NCBI GenBank assembly: GCA_028293625.1
Contig: JAQGOL010000007.1
Span: 62,001-126,000, forward strand
Length of the DNA: 64,000 nucleotides
Direction of reading: 5' to 3'
From: Chthoniobacteraceae bacterium
GTDB lineage: Bacteria > Verrucomicrobiota > Verrucomicrobiia > Chthoniobacterales > Chthoniobacteraceae
Shown here: positions 3,225 through 54,883 of the stretch, in pieces
Position numbering within the stretch: the first letter of the stretch is position 1
Layout of the letters: every line of letters begins with the position of its first letter
Position numbers and translations under genes: made by a program
The notes under the pieces: generated by a model
What the model was told of the DNA's origin: nothing
Database searches by the model: none
Seen by the model: the letters and a program-made list of their open reading frames with translations, nothing else

Positions 3225-5225
3225 TCAAATATCAACCGCGCCAACCGATGAGGCCGGCGCCGCATCGCGAGCTGTGGCTGATGCGGCCGGAATTGCCAAT
3301 TCGAGTCGAAAAAATCGAATCCGTGCCCTGGACCACTCATAATCATCCTCAACGGAGCCTTCGCCTCCCAACACCATGCTTTTAACGCGGGCATCATCAA
3401 GGACCGGAGAAGCAGTTCCTCTCATAACCGCGGCAAATTGCTCCTTTGTCACTAGTGCGGGGGAAAGAAGAAATCCTGCCTCCGCCACTCGCGGAATCAA
3501 TCGAAAAGTCTTGGGACCTGCAGGTACATTCAGCCGCATCAGGATGACCCCTGGTTTGTATAAAAAGCGCTTTACACGCCCTTGCAACGAAAGCGGTAAA
3601 TCAATTTCCGCCCAGATGAGCCCGCTCAAATCAGCTTCCGGCAGCGGGAACGCGATCCCGCGCTCAACAACTATCTCGCCCAGCGACACCTTGCGGAAGC
3701 TGCCCGGCGCAACCCGCTGCTTCAGGCCGAGATAAGCGCCGTGTTCCTGAACGACTTCATACCGTGTCCAGAGTTCCGGCCACGAATAGCCATCATCCAT
3801 GGCTGGAAAACGTCCATCCAGAAAACGAAGATTGAAAAATACGTATTTGGGAGCGTGTTCTCCGCTTAAAAAGTCCGCGTTCAGCTTCGCTAAATTTTTA
3901 GTGTAGGCACCATAGCCTTCACAGATCGGGCGCGGCCTATACGGGAGTCCCGAGGCCTTGACTAAATTCGCCGCGCCCCAAGGATAAATGTCTACGGGCA
4001 CTTCCATTGAAGGAAAACAAAACCGGCCCCGGATCTGTTTCATATCTTGTGGGTAGCGTTCTTTCCAGAGTGGTTTTCCAATTAGCATCCGGCCGAGTCC
4101 CCAGCAGCCTTCCAGACTAATCAAGGAGGCAAACCGGGGTTGAAAATTCTGGTTGGGCAGATTAAGGGAAAAAACAACGATGCAAAGAGCGCTGCCTGGC
4201 AGAAGCCCGGCAGCGGCGGGTATCAATGTTTGCCGATTAGAGTTGAGCGGAAGGAAAATGACGCCCGCCAAGCTGAACGAAACAAGGGAACAAACGGCAA
4301 CCACTTCATGATGATCCTGGCGGATATACCCAGCCTTGAATACGACGAAAAGCAGATAGCTGAGGCCCGCAAAAAATCCGAAGGAAGGAAGCCAGCTGCG
4401 CTCCCGCTTCCGGGCACAGAACCACGCCCCTGCAAGCAACTGAATCGCCAAAGCAATGAACAGGTTCCTCGTAATGCGCTCCCAGGTGGCTGATTTTTGC
4501 ATCGCCTCTGCAAAAGCCCCGGCCACTTCCATCGCTCGCAACAAATACCGGGGGAAGCCAATAAAGTGCTGGCCAGCCAGAAGCCATAAACCGGCTAAAA
4601 AAAGCAGATAAAGCGGCAGCCACGCCCCCAGCCGTCGCTGGCGCAAAAGCCCTATACAGGCAAAAAGCAGAAGTACCGGCCCGATTACGAGAGCCCACGA
4701 TATTTTCACGGAACTTAAAAGCGCCAGCACACCGATCAGGAAAAAATCAGTCCAGCGCTGCTCTCCCCCGCTCAGAAACCAGCGAACCACTACCAGCCCA
4801 ACAAAAAGGAAGACTTCGGCGTCAACAACATCGACCGAACAAACCGGCAACGAGATTGCCACAATCCAAAGGCCTCTCACCCAGGGAGCACACCCCGCGC
4901 TTTTCCCGATTCCCCAAGCCAGTTGCCAGAAAGCCACCGCGATCGCCGTCCACGACAGATAAGTCCACCAGGCCGTGGCAGGGACCACCCCGTAATAAAG
5001 AAAGCCGAACGGGCCAAATGTAAAAACCACGTCGCTTCCGAATTGGAGCCGTTGCACAAATGCATCGTGGAGAACAAGCGCCCACTCATTATTGCAAGGC
5101 GGCGCCCAGGAGGGAGGAACCCACGGAACAAAGGCTCCCAGGATCCATAAACAGGAGAAAAACGCCGGCATCCATTGGAGAAACCGGTTGCGCGTATTCT
5201 CGGGGCTTGGAATTGGGTCAGGCAT
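3225..5225 (-). CDS. Large membrane protein of unknown function
   Basis: I do not recognise the family. The 666-residue protein has about ten hydrophobic helices in the first half (roughly residues 15-340) and a soluble, probably extracytoplasmic second half. That layout resembles membrane glycosyltransferases and mannosyltransferases, but I see no clear catalytic motif. The C-terminus is rich in alanine and arginine. It lies on the opposite strand to the surrounding glycan genes, ends 25 bases from the aminotransferase stop, and starts 53 bases from the divergent glycosyltransferase frame. Its position suggests a role in the same surface glycan (inference). Confidence 0.6.
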   Translation of the reverse strand: MPDPIPSPENTRNRFLQWMPAFFSCLWILGAFVPWVPPSWAPPCNNEWALVLHDAFVQRLQFGSDVVFTFGPFGFLYYGVVPATAWWTYLSWTAIAVAFWQLAWGIGKSAGCAPWVRGLWIVAISLPVCSVDVVDAEVFLFVGLVVVRWFLSGGEQRWTDFFLIGVLALLSSVKISWALVIGPVLLLFACIGLLRQRRLGAWLPLYLLFLAGLWLLAGQHFIGFPRYLLRAMEVAGAFAEAMQKSATWERITRNLFIALAIQLLAGAWFCARKRERSWLPSFGFFAGLSYLLFVVFKAGYIRQDHHEVVAVCSLVSFSLAGVIFLPLNSNRQTLIPAAAGLLPGSALCIVVFSLNLPNQNFQPRFASLISLEGCWGLGRMLIGKPLWKERYPQDMKQIRGRFCFPSMEVPVDIYPWGAANLVKASGLPYRPRPICEGYGAYTKNLAKLNADFLSGEHAPKYVFFNLRFLDGRFPAMDDGYSWPELWTRYEVVQEHGAYLGLKQRVAPGSFRKVSLGEIVVERGIAFPLPEADLSGLIWAEIDLPLSLQGRVKRFLYKPGVILMRLNVPAGPKTFRLIPRVAEAGFLLSPALVTKEQFAAVMRGTASPVLDDARVKSMVLGGEGSVEDDYEWSRARIRFFRLELAIPAASATARDAAPASSVGAVDI

Positions 5226-5278
5226 AATGCGAGGAAAGCAGCCTCAACGCCCCTAAATCAAACCTTTGGGTACAAAGA

Positions 5279-6079
5279 ATGCGAAGGCACGTCTCCATCG
5301 CCGGACCCGCATTAAACCATCCCCTCATGCCACCCCGCGCACCGCTTCAGCTTCTGTCAGTTATCATCCCCGCCCGGGACGAGGAGTATTCCATTGTTTC
5401 GACGATTGAACACCTCCAAACCGAACTGCGGCTCCATCACATTCCTCATGAGATTGTGGTGATTGATGATGGCTCAACCGACGAGACTTGGGCGCGGCTG
5501 CAACTTCTTCAAACCACCATTCACGAACTACGTCCCCTCCAGAATCCCGGGCGCCATGGCTTTGGCCGTGCCATCACCTACGGACTGGAAATGGCCGAAG
5601 GCGACGCCATCACAATCATGATGGCGGATGAGTCCGATGATCCGCGCGACTGCGTGGAGTATTGGAGAAAGCTGAATGAAGGGTTCGACTGCGTCTTCGG
5701 AAGCCGCTTTACCCGCGGGGGCGGCACCATTGCTTATCCTTACTTCAAACTCGTGATTAACCGAGTCGCCAATCTATTTATCCAAGCTGTTTTTGCGATT
5801 CGTCTTAATGACACCACCAACGCTTTTAAAGCATACCGGCGCGACGTGATTGAAGGAATCAAACCGATCCTCTCTCCGCATTTTAATATCACAGTCGAAC
5901 TGCCACTTAAAGCCATCGTACGTGGTTATACCTGGACCACTATTCCTATTACCTGGAAAAACCGGCGCGGAGGGGTTTCCAAACTAAAGATCAAGGAAAT
6001 GGGGAGCCGCTACCTCTTTATTTGCATTTATGTCTGGGTGGAAAAATATTTCTCCCGTGGCGACTATCGCAAGCCGTGA
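5279..6079 (+). CDS. Family 2 glycosyltransferase (DPM1-like)
   Basis: The protein carries the GT-A hallmarks of the dolichol/polyprenyl-phosphate mannosyltransferase group: SVIIPARDEE near the N-terminus, VIDDGSTDETW, MMADESDDPRD in place of the metal-binding DxD, and a later VFGSRFTRGG. No C-terminal membrane anchor follows, unlike the partial gene at the window start. The start may be ATG 5279 or ATG 5327; the second begins just before the family-conserved strand and gives 250 residues. A methyltransferase starts 6 bases after the stop, so the two are very likely co-transcribed. Confidence 0.85.
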   Translation: MRRHVSIAGPALNHPLMPPRAPLQLLSVIIPARDEEYSIVSTIEHLQTELRLHHIPHEIVVIDDGSTDETWARLQLLQTTIHELRPLQNPGRHGFGRAITYGLEMAEGDAITIMMADESDDPRDCVEYWRKLNEGFDCVFGSRFTRGGGTIAYPYFKLVINRVANLFIQAVFAIRLNDTTNAFKAYRRDVIEGIKPILSPHFNITVELPLKAIVRGYTWTTIPITWKNRRGGVSKLKIKEMGSRYLFICIYVWVEKYFSRGDYRKP

Positions 6080-6085
6080 CACTCG

Positions 6086-6757
6086 ATGAGCCAGCAAACC
6101 CACACTCCCGAAGAATTACAACGCATCTACGGTCAACGTTTCGATGCCAAAAGCGAGTATCGCCAGAAGATCTGGAACATCCTTGCCCGCTTCTTCCAAC
6201 GCTGGATTCCCCTCGACGGCCAGCTGCTTGATTTAGGTTGCGGCTACGGAGAGTTTCTCCATGGCATCTCCGCACGCAAAAAATGGGGAATGGATCTAAA
6301 CCCCGAGAGCCGGCAACGCATCCCCTCCGATGCCGAGCTCCTGGCCCAGGATTGCAGCGCGCCATGGCCCCTCGCCGATGGAGCACTGACCACCGTCTTT
6401 ACCTCAAATTTTTTCGAGCATCTCCCGGATAAAGAAACCCTGGGCCGCACACTCGATGAAATTGTTCGCACTCTGGCGCCCGACGGGCGGCTCATTGCCA
6501 TGGGACCTAATATCGCCAAGGTTCATGGCCGATACTGGGATTTCTGGGACCATTACCTTGCTCTCTCAGAACGATCTCTTTGTGAAGCCCTACGCAACCG
6601 AGGGTTTGAAATTGAAATATGTCACGCCGGCTTTCTTCCCTACACGATGGAAGGGAAAAAGGCATCTCCACTTTGGATAGTTGAGCTTTACCTCAGAATG
6701 CCGCTTCTCTGGCGTTTCCTGGGGGAGCAATTTCTCGTGATCGCCAAAAAGCGATGA
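6086..6757 (+). CDS. Class I SAM-dependent methyltransferase
   Basis: This 223-residue protein contains motif I, LLDLGCGYGEFLHGI, and the later strand TVFTSNFFEHLPDKETLGRTL typical of Methyltransf_11-type enzymes. The final segment, ending in EQFLVIAKKR, is like that of methyltransferases in surface polysaccharide clusters. The acceptor is probably a sugar or lipid-linked sugar (inference from context). The stop overlaps the start of the next gene by four bases (ATGA), which indicates translational coupling with the epimerase. Confidence 0.85.
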   Translation: MSQQTHTPEELQRIYGQRFDAKSEYRQKIWNILARFFQRWIPLDGQLLDLGCGYGEFLHGISARKKWGMDLNPESRQRIPSDAELLAQDCSAPWPLADGALTTVFTSNFFEHLPDKETLGRTLDEIVRTLAPDGRLIAMGPNIAKVHGRYWDFWDHYLALSERSLCEALRNRGFEIEICHAGFLPYTMEGKKASPLWIVELYLRMPLLWRFLGEQFLVIAKKR

Positions 6758-7737
6758 ACCGAATTTTGATTACCGGCGGCGCTGGTTTTGCCGGCTCCAC
6801 GATTGCCCGCGCTCTGAGAGACCGGAATCCCGATTCCGAGATTGTCCAGGCAGACAATCTCGGCCGCCGTGGCAGTGAGCTCACACTTCCGGGACTTGCG
6901 GCGGCCGGCATTCGTTTCCTGCACGGGGATGTGCGAAATCCACACGATTTCCCGCAAGACTTCAAAGCCGATGTGCTCGTGGAATGTTCCGCAGAACCGA
7001 GTGTAATGGCCGGCTACTCCAGCGCGCCCAATTATCTTCTCGAGACCAATCTTTCAGGAGCTATCAACTGCCTTGAATACTGCCGTAAGCACCAGTCTCA
7101 AATCATCTTCCTTTCCACCTCACGAGTTTATTCAACCAGGGCCCTTTGCTCCGCGCGGATAGTGGAAACTTCCACCAGGTTTACCTTTGCAGAGGAACAA
7201 GTTCTTCCAGGCTGCAGCCCGGAAGGGATCTCCGCAGATTTTCCCACAACCGGTCCGCGGTCACTCTACGGGACTACCAAGCTCGCCGCTGAACTGCTCA
7301 TCGAGGAATACGGACACGCTTATGGAATCCATACTGTCATCAACCGTTGCGGCGTCCTTGCAGGTCCCTGGCAAATGGCCCACCCGGATCAGGGTATCTT
7401 CACATTCTGGCTCTGGCGCCATCTGCAAGGAAAACCACTCACCTACATCGGTTTTGATGGCACCGGCCGTCAAACGCGCGATCTGCTTGATGCCCGTGAT
7501 CTTGCGACTCTCTTAGATCTCCAGATTAAAGAACCCGAGGTTTGGAATGGTTGGAATGGTTGGAATGGCAATGTAGGTGGCGGCCGGCAAATAAGCCTTT
7601 CACTACAAGAGACCACGGCGCTTTGCCGGGAACTGACCGGGAACGTTGTTCCAATTGCCGCTGATCTGAATCCCCGGCTGATGGACATTCCAATCTACCT
7701 CTCCGATTGCGCACAGCTTTACGCGCGGACCTCCTAG
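6754..7737 (+). CDS. NAD-dependent epimerase, CDP-paratose 2-epimerase-like
   Basis: This is an extended short-chain dehydrogenase. The nucleotide-binding motif GGAGFAGS is at the N-terminus, followed by NLGRRGSEL, HGDVRNP and ECSAEPSVMAGY, which together are characteristic of the RfbE/TyvE group that epimerises CDP-paratose to CDP-tyvelose. STSRVYS and the catalytic YGTTK are present. The actual substrate may differ, because no CDP-sugar synthase genes are visible nearby. A 9-base unit is repeated three times inside the gene (7542-7568) and expands the loop before NVGGG. The gene overlaps the methyltransferase by four bases and ends the plus-strand block. Confidence 0.8.
   Translation: MNRILITGGAGFAGSTIARALRDRNPDSEIVQADNLGRRGSELTLPGLAAAGIRFLHGDVRNPHDFPQDFKADVLVECSAEPSVMAGYSSAPNYLLETNLSGAINCLEYCRKHQSQIIFLSTSRVYSTRALCSARIVETSTRFTFAEEQVLPGCSPEGISADFPTTGPRSLYGTTKLAAELLIEEYGHAYGIHTVINRCGVLAGPWQMAHPDQGIFTFWLWRHLQGKPLTYIGFDGTGRQTRDLLDARDLATLLDLQIKEPEVWNGWNGWNGNVGGGRQISLSLQETTALCRELTGNVVPIAADLNPRLMDIPIYLSDCAQLYARTS
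7542..7568. repeat. Perfect 9-bp tandem repeat, three units, in-frame in the epimerase gene
   Basis: The unit TTGGAATGG occurs three times without mismatch. It encodes successive Trp-Asn-Gly triplets directly before the conserved NVGGG loop. Because the unit is a multiple of three, gain or loss of units would keep the reading frame. Confidence 0.95.
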
Positions 7738-7848
7738 CGCCCCCGGCGCACCTCAAGACAAATACTCACCGATACCCTGACCTGGCTCCAGGATTGCCGC
7801 TCGTTATTGGAAACTGCATTGCCTTGAAAAGCCGAACCTCCCGAAGCA

Positions 7849-49432: not shown

Positions 49433-50728
49433 TTACGCGGCGTCTTTGTCCTGCTTGCGGCGGATCAATGGAGGACGTTTGCCTTCCACAACTGAGCGAT
49501 TAATGGTCACGTCGGCCACATCGTCCCGGCTTGGAATCTCATACATGAGATCGAGCATGATTCTTTCGATCATGGAACGGAGCGCACGGGCTCCCGTCCC
49601 CTTGGTAACGGCCTGTTCGGCCAGGGCGCGCAAGCCATCCTTGGTGACGTTGAGAGTGACCCCTTCCATGGAAAGCAGCTTGGTGAACTGCTTGACCATC
49701 GCGTTCTTCGTGTCTGTCAGGATCATCACCAACTCATCCTCGGTAAGCTGATCAAGAGCAGTGACAACCGGCAGACGACCGACAAATTCCGGAATCATCC
49801 CGAAACTCAAAAGATCTTCCGGCTCGGTAAAACGAATCGCCTCGCTGGCGGGTACTTCAGCGAGACTCGCCTCGGATACCTCATGTGCGTTGACGCCGAA
49901 CCCAAGCACTTTTTTACCCATCCGCTTCTGGATCATCTTGTCGAGACCAACAAAAGCGCCGCCGCAGATAAAGAGGATCTTTTCCGTGCTGACCTGAATG
50001 TATTCCTGATGCGGATGTTTGCGGCCCCCTTGCGGCGGCACATTGCAGGTGGTGCCTTCGAGAATCTTCAGGAGCGCCTGCTGTACACCTTCGCCGCTGA
50101 CATCGCGGGTAATCGAGACGTTGTCGGTCTTGCGGCCGATTTTATCGATTTCATCAATGTAAACGATTCCGATTTCCGCGCGTTTGACATCGTAATCGGC
50201 AGCCTGAAGAAGGCGCAGGATGATGTTCTCAACATCTTCACCCACATAACCGGCCTCGGTCAGCGTGGTTGCATCGGCAATACAGAACGGCACGTCGATC
50301 ACGCGGGCCAAAGTACGGGCAAGGAGCGTTTTTCCCGAACCGGTCGGACCGATAAGCAGGATGTTGCTTTTCTCAATCTCGATATCGCCCAACGGATCCA
50401 TTTGGACTGGAGCCGTGCTCGAGCCAATCGATTGATTGTGCAGGATCCGCTTGTAATGATTATGGACCGCAACGCTGAGCGTCTTTTTGGCGCGATCCTG
50501 TCCGATTACAAACTGATCCAGCTGGCGGCGAATCTCGATCGGTTTGGGGACCCGCAATGCAGTCGACTGGCGGCGCGCATCCTCATTGAGCTCCTTATCG
50601 AGGATCCCCTTACAAACGGTGATACAGCTGTCGCAAATGTAAACACCAGGACCTGCGATGAGCTTGCGCACTTCGGCGTGGCTTTTGCCACAGAAGCTGC
50701 ACATTGTGAGATTAGAGGCGCGTGCCAT
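49433..50728 (-). CDS. clpX: ATP-dependent Clp protease ATP-binding subunit ClpX
   Basis: The N-terminal zinc-binding domain has C10, C13, C32 and C35 ([11 protein letters not shown] and ICDSC). Walker A is [14 protein letters not shown], and [18 protein letters not shown] is the ClpX pore-1/YVG region. [13 protein letters not shown] is Walker B, and [13 protein letters not shown] precedes the sensor regions. It unfolds substrates for ClpP. The gene follows clpP by 18 bases on the same strand. Confidence 0.97.
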
Positions 50729-50746
50729 GTCGGTTCAAACGGGAGA

Positions 50747-51430
50747 CTAAGGATTCTTGGATTCTGCTTCGACCTGCTCAACGATGTCGGCGGCCGTTTT
50801 TAATTCTTTACGGCTTTTAACCACTTCATCAACAAGACCGTAATCTTTGGCTTCCTGCGCGGTCATGTAATAATCGCGGTCGGAATCGGCCTTGACGATT
50901 TCTTCCGGCTTTCCGGTGTGATGAGCAAGCAGCTTGATGAGCCGTTTTTTGAGCTTGAACATGTATTCCACAGTCCGCTCCACGTCGCTTGCGGTGCCTT
51001 GGGCCCCGCCGCTCACCTGATGAATCATGATGTCGGAGTTGGGCAACGCAAAACGCTTGCCGCGCGTACCGGCCGCAAGCAGAACCGCGCCCATGGAGGC
51101 CGCCATGCCGATGCAGTAGGTATTCACGTCGCACGTGAGGAACTGCATGGTGTCATAGATCGCGAGTCCGGCCGTGACCGAACCGCCAGGGGAATTGATA
51201 TAAATGCTGATGTCTTTTTTCCCATCATCCATCTGGAGGAAAAGAAGCTGCGCAATCACCGAATTGGCGACACCGTCGTCGATCGCCGTGCCCAAAAAGA
51301 TGATCCGATCTTTAAGAAGACGCGAATAGATGTCGTAGCTGCGCTCCCCGCGTCCGGTTTGTTCAACAACAACTGGAACGTAATAGTTATTCCGCGGAGT
51401 CTGCATACCGCTGTTTGGCTGGATAATCAT
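50747..51430 (-). CDS. clpP: ATP-dependent Clp protease proteolytic subunit ClpP
   Basis: This is a 227-residue serine peptidase. [27 protein letters not shown] with nucleophile S112, and [12 protein letters not shown] with H137 are present, and the Asp is in [15 protein letters not shown]. It forms the degradation chamber used with ClpX, encoded next door. It lies four bases after the trigger factor stop, so tig, clpP and clpX almost certainly form one operon. Confidence 0.97.
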
Positions 51431-51434
51431 AGGG

Positions 51435-52778
51435 TCAATTTGCGTCCGCGCTGCCTTGCTCCTGGCTTTCGGGAACGTGGGTCACGCTAGCTTTGGAGAT
51501 CAGGAAATCAAGGGTCTTAGCCGTAATGATCTCTTCGTTGATCTGATCGATGGCATTATTTTTCTCCACTTCTTTCACCATCTTTTCAAACGGCACTTTG
51601 TAATGCTCAGCCATGGCCGCGATCCGGCCGAAAATTTCTTCACGGCTGACACGAATGTTTTCCTGCTCGGCGATGCGCAACAGGATGAATGCTCCTTTGA
51701 GCTTCTCCCGCGCCCCCTGGGAAGCGACGCCGATGAGCTCGCGCTGACTTTCCTTGATCAATTCTTCGGTCACGCCGCGCGATTGATTGTCGCGAACGAT
51801 ATCGTTGAAAATGCGCTGGGTCTCATTGCGCACCATGTTGACCGGCAGTTCGCATTCCACGCCCGAAAGCAGGTGCTTCATGATCTGGACACGCTTGCTC
51901 GATTCCACATTGGCCTCTTTCTGCCGGCCGAGTTCTTCACGAGCCATCACGCGCAATTCCTCAAGGCTCTTTCCTTTGGCCACGGAGTCGGCGAACGCGT
52001 CGTCGAGCTCAGGCAGCACTTTTTCCTTCAGTCCTTTGAGCGTCACCTTGTAATGGATTTTCTGCCCAGGCATCCCTTCGACTGGAAAATCAACCGGCAC
52101 TTCGACATCAAATTCACGCGTCTCACCAGGCAGCGCACCGACCAGGTTGGCGCAATAGCCGGGGAAGAAAGCTTCATCGGTCATCTTGATCCAGAAATCT
52201 TCATTGGATGAAAGCGGCTTGCCGGCTTTCGGGAAAACCTCATGCACCGGTTTTCCATCCACAGTCCCCTCGTAATCAACCACCACAAAGTCTTCAAGCT
52301 GAGCGGGGCGCGCGGGGACATCGACAAAATCCGCGGCCTGATCGCGCAGGTTCTCGATCGATTCCTCGATTTCCTTATCTGTGACTTCGGTCGGCTTCAG
52401 TTCAATCGAGAGCCCTTTGTAGTTGGGCAGGTCAAATTGCGGCTGGGTGACCACGGTCGCAGTGAAGGACATCGTGTTGTCATCGGCCAGCTGCACGTCT
52501 TCCACGTTCGCGATCTGAAGGACACGCAGCTGCTTTTCCTGGATTGCTTCGCGGGTGCTGTCGCGCAGCAACTTGCCTTCGAGCTCTTCGCGGATCTGCT
52601 TCTTAAACTTCTTTTCCACAAGCGCACGCGGCGCTTTGCCTGGACGATAGCCCGGCACTTTGGCGGTTTTCCCATACGCTTTAACAAGTTCGTCCAGGGC
52701 CTGGTTGACTTTCGCCGGCTCCACCTCAACGCGAAGAGTGGCCAGGCAATTTGGAAGGGATTCGTAGACGACGTTCAT
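51435..52778 (-). CDS. tig: Trigger factor, ribosome-associated chaperone
   Basis: I chose ATG 52778 ([21 protein letters not shown]), since the upstream ten residues are unlike the family N-terminus. The ribosome-binding domain shows [16 protein letters not shown], the equivalent of the GFRxGxxP signature. A peptidyl-prolyl isomerase-like middle domain has [14 protein letters not shown] and [17 protein letters not shown], and the C-terminal helical arms end [15 protein letters not shown]. It is the first gene of the tig-clpP-clpX series. Confidence 0.95.
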
Positions 52779-52803
52779 GTTTGGGAAATTTGAAAGGGGC
52801 GAA

Positions 52804-52831
52804 AACATAACGGCTCACCCAAAAATGCAAA
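52804..52831 (-). promoter_or_regulatory. Weak candidate sigma-70-like promoter for tig-clpP-clpX
   Basis: On the minus strand TTTGCA and TATGTT are separated by 16 bases, about 26 bases upstream of the trigger factor start. The match to consensus is modest, and the placement is the main support. Confidence 0.3.
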
Positions 52832-52910
52832 CACCGAAAATTCCCGGTATTTGAAATGATTGCCTTCAACCGCCAAATGCGGCCTGAATTTAAGGTCCAA
52901 ATCGTGGGAT

Positions 52911-53204
52911 TTAATCCACCACAAGGTCTACCAAACGGCGCAACGGACAGGTGGCGGCGCTTTGATCGTCAAGAAACTCTACCCGATAAGAATGGCCGTT
53001 CTCAGTGATGGTGATTTCGTAAATCTGGAAATCGGCGCCCTTGGCGTCACCGGCCACGCGCGCGGGAAGTTTGAAAAATTGCGTGCTTTGAACAAGAGCC
53101 TCGATTTTTTGCGCCTTGGCAGCGTCGAGCAAGTGCGTATCGACATCGGCCACCCGCTGGACAAGACCTGCAAAACCGCCGGATTGAGTTATTAAAATAT
53201 GCAT
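52911..53204 (-). CDS. Predicted protealysin/M4 peptidase inhibitor, emfourin family
   Basis: ATG 53204 gives MHILITQSGGFAGLVQRVADVDTHLL, the emfourin N-terminus as I know it (a strand, then SGGFAGL). It continues with KIEALVQSTQFFKLP, DFQIYEITITENGHSYRVEF and a final helix CPLRRLVDLVVD, all at family positions in a chain of 97 residues. Emfourins are small proteins that block M4 peptidases of the protealysin type from the same gene neighbourhood. Here the M4-type gene lies directly upstream on the same strand. A hairpin between them may set the protease-to-inhibitor ratio. Confidence 0.85.
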   Translation of the reverse strand: MHILITQSGGFAGLVQRVADVDTHLLDAAKAQKIEALVQSTQFFKLPARVAGDAKGADFQIYEITITENGHSYRVEFLDDQSAATCPLRRLVDLVVD

Positions 53205-53221
53205 GAAAACGTGCAAAAAGA

Positions 53222-53252
53222 AACAGCCCGGAGAAATCGCCTCCGGGCTGTT
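53222..53252 (-). terminator. Strong hairpin between M4 peptidase and emfourin genes
   Basis: AACAGCCCGGAG (53222-53233) and CTCCGGGCTGTT (53241-53252) form a perfect twelve-base stem with a seven-base loop. On the minus strand it is followed by TTCTTTTTG, suitable for intrinsic termination of the peptidase transcript. Read-through would reach emfourin, which starts 18 bases further. Confidence 0.8.
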
Positions 53253-53275
53253 TTACGTTCAATAAAAGGGATTTT

Positions 53276-54670
53276 TCAGCCCCTTGATTTTTTTAATTCT
53301 TCGAGCTCCTCCCACATGCTCTGTTCAGCGCCGCTATATTCAAAGTGGTTCATCGTTCCGCAGCAGCCTTCACAATTCTGCAGCACACCGGGAGGATCCT
53401 GAATATTAGCCGCCAGATACTGGCCGGCAATATGGCTCTCGCTAAGCGGCGTTGGCGAGACGAGCACCTCACGCAGGGTGAACCGGTTTCGAATAAAGTT
53501 GCGGTATTCCGTGGGTTTGCCGTCGGCGGCCGCAAGGATCAGCAACTGGTTGGCCACATCGGCAAACGTGGCGGCGCTGTTTGGGGCGGCGCGGAAGGCG
53601 CGAATGACCAAGCCGCAAAGATATTTGCCCGCCTCGTAGAGAACCGCCGAATCATCGCGCTGAATCGGCCGCTGTTCGAAGCGGAAAATATCGGCCAGAA
53701 TATCGTAGATTGCACCGGTGAAGACCTGCGAAAGCGCATGCACTTCACTGCCGACCTCACTTAATTTGAGATCATTATCCGCGTTGCGAAGTCCGTTGGG
53801 CCGGCCAAGAGAGAGCCCGAATTGTTCAGCCAGATCGGCCAGGAAGGTTTTATCGTGCAGATTGGCCTTGGTCTGGGCCACCACGGCTTCGACCTGATCG
53901 AGCTGCGAAAGCGCCAGGAAGATCGCGGTCAGATCGCCAAACGACTCATGCAAACCTCCGGTTTGCGGCGGATTATTAAACCCAAGCCAGGCCGGCTTCA
54001 TCCCGTCCAGCACAGCGTGCCCTGTCTCGTGGGCGACAATATCAAAAGAGCGGCAGGTATAGATATGCTGTGGAGGCGTGGTTCCCGGCTGCACAAAGTC
54101 GCCAAATCGCAGCGCTTTTTCCTGGCGGCTGTAATAAGCGTTCATCACGTCGGGCAGCCCGTGCGGATAAACGCTCAGCGGCTCCACGTTGTGCGCATTA
54201 TTCCATTCCCAAGGACAAGGATTGGAAAGCGCGCGCTGGAACATCGTCAGCGTCTCGCGCACCACTGAAAACGTGTGCACCGAATCAAACGCAGCCGTGC
54301 CCGGCGTCTGAATAAAGTCACCCATCAGATTGGGGCTCACCGAGGGAAGCGCCGCCATGCCGGTTCCATTCCTTAAACGGGCATCACGCGGTCCGGGGAA
54401 AACGTGACCTGGGAGGAAAGTCTTGCGAACATTGATTTCGGGCACCGAGGGATCTTGCTTCCACATGAGCACACGCGCTCCCGGCAGCGGGAGCGGGACT
54501 GGAATTGGGACCGGCATCGCGGGGATGCCGGGTTCCATTGTGTTTTTGCGAATTTTGCGATGCACGCGATATGCCCGAGTGGGCGTTGGAACGAGAGATA
54601 CGGGCATGCCCGATTCCGGATGTTGGTTTCCATTTCCATCGAGGGTTGGCTGATCAAATGTTCTAATCAT
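53276..54670 (-). CDS. M4-type (thermolysin/protealysin-like) metallopeptidase
   Basis: ATG 54670 (MIRTFDQ) is the likely start. There is no signal peptide, as in leaderless protealysin. The metal site is VAHETGHAVLDG (H214-E215-T216-G217-H218), with GGLHESFGDLTAIF giving E242 as third ligand. SEVHALSQVFTGAIYDIL matches the region with the catalytic transition-state His of M4. The gene lacks the HELTH wording of classical M4, so it is a divergent branch. A proline-rich stretch (residues about 50-62) precedes the catalytic domain. The emfourin gene follows downstream. Confidence 0.8.
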   Translation of the reverse strand: MIRTFDQPTLDGNGNQHPESGMPVSLVPTPTRAYRVHRKIRKNTMEPGIPAMPVPIPVPLPLPGARVLMWKQDPSVPEINVRKTFLPGHVFPGPRDARLRNGTGMAALPSVSPNLMGDFIQTPGTAAFDSVHTFSVVRETLTMFQRALSNPCPWEWNNAHNVEPLSVYPHGLPDVMNAYYSRQEKALRFGDFVQPGTTPPQHIYTCRSFDIVAHETGHAVLDGMKPAWLGFNNPPQTGGLHESFGDLTAIFLALSQLDQVEAVVAQTKANLHDKTFLADLAEQFGLSLGRPNGLRNADNDLKLSEVGSEVHALSQVFTGAIYDILADIFRFEQRPIQRDDSAVLYEAGKYLCGLVIRAFRAAPNSAATFADVANQLLILAAADGKPTEYRNFIRNRFTLREVLVSPTPLSESHIAGQYLAANIQDPPGVLQNCEGCCGTMNHFEYSGAEQSMWEELEELKKSRG

Positions 54671-54883
54671 TGCGGTGTGCTTTTGCTTTTTGGTGAGCCC
54701 CGCCAAAACCCGGCATCGGGCTTTCTGGGGGGCGCCACAATGACGAGTCGCCCTGCCTCCCGCCATTGGGGCAGCCGCCCGTTGAACCCTAGGCTAAAGC
54801 CTGAGCCAGCCCGCCGATCCTCCCGCCTTTTTGACTCAGTAAAAAGCGCAGGTTTTCATCCTCCAAAAACCGCTCAACCCGTC

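Follow-up and report, generated by a model that had tools for sequence, protein, structure and literature searches.

A predicted M4/M36-like metallopeptidase gene followed by an emfourin-family gene in a Chthoniobacteraceae genome and in four other phyla

Here we describe a two-gene locus on the minus strand of a 64-kb stretch of DNA (the window, meaning the whole of the stretch analysed), in which the gene for an apparent zinc metallopeptidase is followed by one for a small emfourin-family protein. The features of the locus are these:

53276..54670, minus strand: gene for an M4/M36-like gluzincin metallopeptidase as judged by motifs and model (open reading frame, 464 aa from ATG)
53221..53253, minus strand: perfect hairpin of 13 bp whose T-rich tail runs to about 53211, terminator-like, in the gap between enzyme and inhibitor genes
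52911..53204, minus strand: gene for an emfourin-family protein, a predicted peptidase inhibitor (open reading frame of 97 aa; Pfam PF20242, AF2, Foldseek)
52828..52853, minus strand: weaker terminator-like hairpin past the emfourin gene, ahead of the trigger factor gene (consensus scan)

An alternative in-frame ATG at 54766 would extend the enzyme from 464 to 496 aa. The gap between the genes measures 71 bases (53205-53275), as the first-pass annotation of this DNA had it; the hairpin described there is perfect and terminator-like with a minus-strand T-rich tail, but its arms are of 13 bp rather than twelve. Next after the pair, in the same orientation, comes an ordinary tig-clpP-clpX run (49433-52808), from which the weaker hairpin separates the emfourin gene; the consensus scan returned no more terminator-like sites in the region than it did in shuffled sequence.

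The small protein matched the Pfam Emfourin profile PF20242 at 53.9 bits (cut-off 27; E 2.5e-14), with residues 5-93 aligned to positions 1-88 of 91, which upholds the family first proposed for this same-strand gene; the emfourins of all 20 relatives scanned matched the profile as well. Its AF2 model (pLDDT 93.6) had as top Foldseek match the solved emfourin of Serratia proteamaculans, 6zyg (probability 0.89, E 6e-3). In a second aligner (VIA) 6zyg scored Z 5.3 with an rmsd of 5.9, below unrelated Mago proteins, and family membership is therefore taken mainly from Pfam. Profiles of the window-type emfourins did not find the S. proteamaculans protein in a PDB sequence search; the Pfam match and the predicted fold are what suggest the link to it. 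The emfourin gene is under purifying selection among Massilia, the median dN/dS over close pairs being 0.26.

The enzyme carries the zinc motif HETGH at residues 214-218 and a third ligand, E242, exactly where the first reading had placed them, the latter accompanied by D246 in the sequence GGLHESFGD. Further motifs are SEVHALSQ, containing H311, MNAYYSR, containing N177, and a C-terminal CCGTMN (436-441); by motif context we equate H311 and N177 with H231 and N112 of thermolysin. HExxH and the glutamate ligand are conserved in all 68 relatives of the enzyme, and N177 is replaced only in a fragmented one (L063). H311 is kept in every relative except L035, a Bacteroidota metagenome-assembled genome (MAG), where the equivalent residue is lost (GTDVLALSQ) and no emfourin is present. 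The Cys-Cys-Gly of the C-terminal motif (436-438 of CCGTMN, in the C-terminus encoded at window 53279-53370) is invariant across the family alignment of 32 sequences (A1), and may perhaps serve in metal binding or as a latch. No signal peptide was seen, the highest 15-residue mean hydropathy being 1.25 and lying within a proline-rich stretch, in keeping with the original description of the enzyme as leaderless.

Assignment of this enzyme to a family is less direct. M4 peptidases have the third-ligand motif GxxNExxSD, from which GGLHESFGD deviates by Asn to His and Ser to Gly. Pfam and NCBIfam scans of the enzyme gave nothing above cut-off, M4, M4_C, PLN_propep and M36 included: the M4 profile PF01447 reached 14.2 bits against a cut-off of 22.4, and the M36 profile PF02128 had no match. 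Among 32 relatives, PF01447 matched 29 at an E of 1 or less (best 5.8e-5) and PF02128 weakly matched three (best 0.0038). The protealysin propeptide profile, PF16485, did not match either, although this is a weak test: the classical control L078 reached only 16.3 bits with the cut-off at 28.1, and L076 gave no match. PDB sequence searches with the enzyme, including its family profile, returned no relevant match.

A structural model was built from alignment A1 (mean pLDDT 75). Over residues 63-420 its closest counterparts are the M36 fungalysins (Z 26.8-27.1), followed by M4 peptidases at Z about 20-22. The best match is with the fungalysins of Aspergillus (4k90) and Pseudogymnoascus (7qp3; Z 27.1, 312 residues, rmsd 3.1); thermolysin gave Z 21.6 over 279 residues with an rmsd of 4.2, and protealysin Z 19.6. 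Foldseek matches 1 to 26 were all M4 or M36 peptidases. As modelled, the enzyme thus has both fungalysin-like and thermolysin-like fold features, although it differs from the fungalysins in being bacterial, in sharing 14% identity with them, in lacking a visible signal peptide or an M36 Pfam match above cut-off, and in having an emfourin gene alongside. Because the third-ligand motif departs from that of M4, and in view of the fold and motif data, we call it an M4/M36-like gluzincin rather than filing it in M4. The label "M4-type" given at first pass accords with motifs and predicted fold and fails at the M4 profile, and the idea of a divergent protealysin is given up: the modelled fold and the profile results point to a separate gluzincin family, nearer to M36. 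The protein would be a zinc protease of the cell interior and no more than a distant relative of thermolysin.

The published work on emfourin considered here concerns protealysin: in S. proteamaculans the two are encoded in the same operon, emfourin inhibits protealysin 1:1, and deletion of emfourin makes optical density fall earlier and extracts cleave more actin (PMC9505478). The Serratia operon, in which an M4 peptidase with a PLN propeptide is joined by its inhibitor, M4in, resembles the window pair in forming one unit of an intracellular enzyme with a thermolysin-like core and an emfourin-family inhibitor. It differs from it in several respects. The window enzyme has GGLHESFGD where protealysin has GALNESxSD; at 464 aa it is the longer of the two, its tail carries a conserved CCGTMN, and it matches none of Pfam M4, M4_C and PLN_propep above cut-off; the window pair also has its 71-base gap with a hairpin.

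The pair is also found beyond this genome. At 48 of the 68 relatives' loci an emfourin gene lies immediately downstream of the enzyme gene on the same strand, in Oxalobacteraceae, Nitrosospira, two Nitrospirota, Methylomirabilis and Emticicia, and so in Pseudomonadota, Nitrospirota, Methylomirabilota and Bacteroidota. The paired genes often overlap or stand within 10-20 bases of each other, which indicates an operon. Since the two-gene unit recurs in unrelated bacteria, the known partner of the emfourin family appears not to be the only kind of protease that it serves. Enzyme and emfourin have also been inherited together: their distances correlate with an r of 0.83, a value attained by none of 2000 permutations, although much of this may reflect shared vertical descent within Massilia. 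The PLD nuclease encoded upstream, earlier counted as part of the context of the pair, has no relative at any of the 68 loci and is therefore not part of the unit. A search of plasmids found no full-length relative of the enzyme and no emfourin.

How the pair came to the window genome can be judged from the genomes around it. Three congeners gave no match to either gene. The enzyme was matched in five of 57 near-relative genomes, the window's own included, the other four giving only distant, partial matches at 34-37% identity; among 289 genomes from across the phylum the full-length type was found in the window's own alone. The nearest relatives of the enzyme and of the emfourin are the same two MAGs, a Nitrospirae (L002) and a Methylomirabilis (L003). 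As the enzyme type was not found in the congeners, both genes were probably acquired together, joint horizontal transfer being the simplest reading.

Classical pairs, in which emfourin directly follows a HELTH protealysin-like M4 enzyme as it follows the enzyme in the window, occur in the host's order (L076, L077, L078; also L080, whose emfourin match is below cut-off), and two members of the host's family carry emfourins of the classical kind. The inhibitor family is thus not new to this order; the enzyme type is. Unlike the window enzyme, the classical enzymes checked (L076, L078) match PF01447 and PF02868 strongly. The emfourin tree, from which that of L080 was left out, splits by type of partner enzyme, placing the classical-pair emfourins on the other side from the window type, with weak support for the split (69/51). 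The Methylomirabilis MAG of L003 (G625) holds both pair types, a classical HELTH and a HETGH enzyme (L096 and L102), each with its emfourin.

The other 20 loci comprise 18 from Oxalobacteraceae (Massilia/Telluria and kin) and L035, all without a paired emfourin, and L033, which breaks off within the gene and so tells nothing either way. In the 18 the enzyme motifs are intact and a putative ferredoxin gene takes the place of emfourin downstream, so that emfourin seems dispensable there. Of ten such genomes searched with PF20242, seven had no match anywhere, so the enzyme does not in every case need emfourin to inhibit it; in the other three emfourin was present beside a classical HELTH enzyme. 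The notion that loss of emfourin goes with loss of catalysis was rejected, as the 18 orphans retain all motifs; L035, missing both emfourin and the His311 equivalent, is the sole exception (n = 1). These orphans are the ground for supposing that the emfourin-like protein is instead a chaperone, an assembly factor or a regulator of something else, placed beside the enzyme by joint transfer only. We regard this as very unlikely, given that the same adjacency, with overlapping genes, is found across four phyla and that classical protealysin-emfourin pairs exist in the host's order and in Massilia.

At 25-36% identity over the catalytic region the enzyme also has distant relatives, with the motif HETTHALLDG...AFHEAFAD (L071-L075, and L090 on Rhizobium leguminosarum pRL1, 4716-7810). 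They differ in being much larger, and no emfourin was found at their loci; two are fused to subtilase and one has a weak match to Effector-associated domain 2. A putative metallohydrolase gene follows the HETTH gene in L071, L073, L074 and pRL1, and the pRL1 gene also lies near one for a DUF1837 protein. Possibly these proteins form a separate protease-based conflict system.

Such relatives bear on whether the window pair might be a toxin/immunity module, the enzyme being delivered to or released on competitors and the emfourin protecting the producer and its kin. The subtilase fusions, the effector-associated match and the DUF1837 neighbour on the Rhizobium plasmid fit this idea, as do the apparent horizontal mobility of the module and the role in competition that the authors of PMC9505478 propose for protealysin and emfourin. 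Yet neither the two window genes nor their neighbours showed any delivery domain, secretion gene or signal for export, and some Oxalobacteraceae retain the enzyme without the immunity gene, so a toxin/immunity module seems to us improbable; a role in bacterial competition is possible.

The arms of the gap hairpin (53221-53233 and 53241-53253) are 100% complementary over 13 bp, a 14th pair being added in the scan, and are followed on the minus strand by the T-rich tail CTTTTTGCAC. It is the sole perfect hairpin with arms of at least 13 bp in the 64-kb window, and none arose in ten windows simulated at the same first-order (Markov) composition. The folded hairpin region has a z of -4.0, and the gap alone a z of -4.65 against dinucleotide-preserving shuffles. 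No Rfam family was found in the region. Unusual gap hairpins (z of -2 or lower) occur in the window and in L002, L004, L011, L018, L020, L021 and L040, and three of the 11 gaps tested have none; where relatives have a gap of some 70 bases or longer, it frequently contains a strong stem of unrelated sequence. Of these hairpins, only those of the window and of L021 (Emticicia) have a clear T-tail, and the overlap of the two genes in many Massilia pairs leaves no room for a hairpin.

Only 16 bases separate the end of the stem from the emfourin ATG. A conventional promoter does not fit in that space, no sigma-70-like site was found in it, and separate control of emfourin would thus need a leaderless start, the other course being read-through. 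No Shine-Dalgarno sequence is apparent ahead of the ATG. From its sequence, the hairpin could act in partial termination or protect the 3' end of the mRNA; both are possible. An efficient terminator, or mere protection of the enzyme mRNA, with emfourin transcribed on its own from a leaderless start, would suit the strong stem and T-rich tail, the short spacing with no apparent Shine-Dalgarno sequence, and the stems without a T-run in several relatives. Most Massilia pairs overlap or nearly touch, however, which makes co-transcription the common state, and separate transcription is in our judgement unlikely.

We therefore favour, as a likely though by no means assured reading, a two-gene protease/inhibitor unit in which emfourin holds a non-exported zinc endopeptidase in check. 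The endopeptidase, encoded by the first gene, would have the catalytic core of thermolysin and fungalysin, and no protealysin-type propeptide is detectable in it. Emfourin would most likely bind in its active-site cleft, keeping the protease harmless in the cytoplasm until needed, and so would take over the protection that other M4/M36 enzymes owe to a propeptide or to export. The hairpin would most likely be a partial (leaky) terminator or a 3'-end stabiliser of the enzyme message, so that the inhibitor would be made by read-through past it. With the effect of emfourin deletion in Serratia as a model, a cytoplasmic zinc protease checked by its own emfourin is the most likely arrangement.

A wider picture is offered more tentatively, as one that may well not hold in full: a peptidase family of its own, lying between M4 and M36 and outside the curated Pfam models of both; emfourin replacing the propeptide as a cytoplasmic safety catch; emfourins diversified along two enzyme lineages; and a dose of inhibitor set by a recurrent intergenic hairpin. 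If the enzymes do form a distinct second family, served by a separate lineage of emfourins, the known targets of the inhibitor would be widened, the orphan enzymes of Massilia would provide natural controls, and the pair would suggest what keeps a thermolysin-like protease safe inside the cell when it has no recognisable propeptide.
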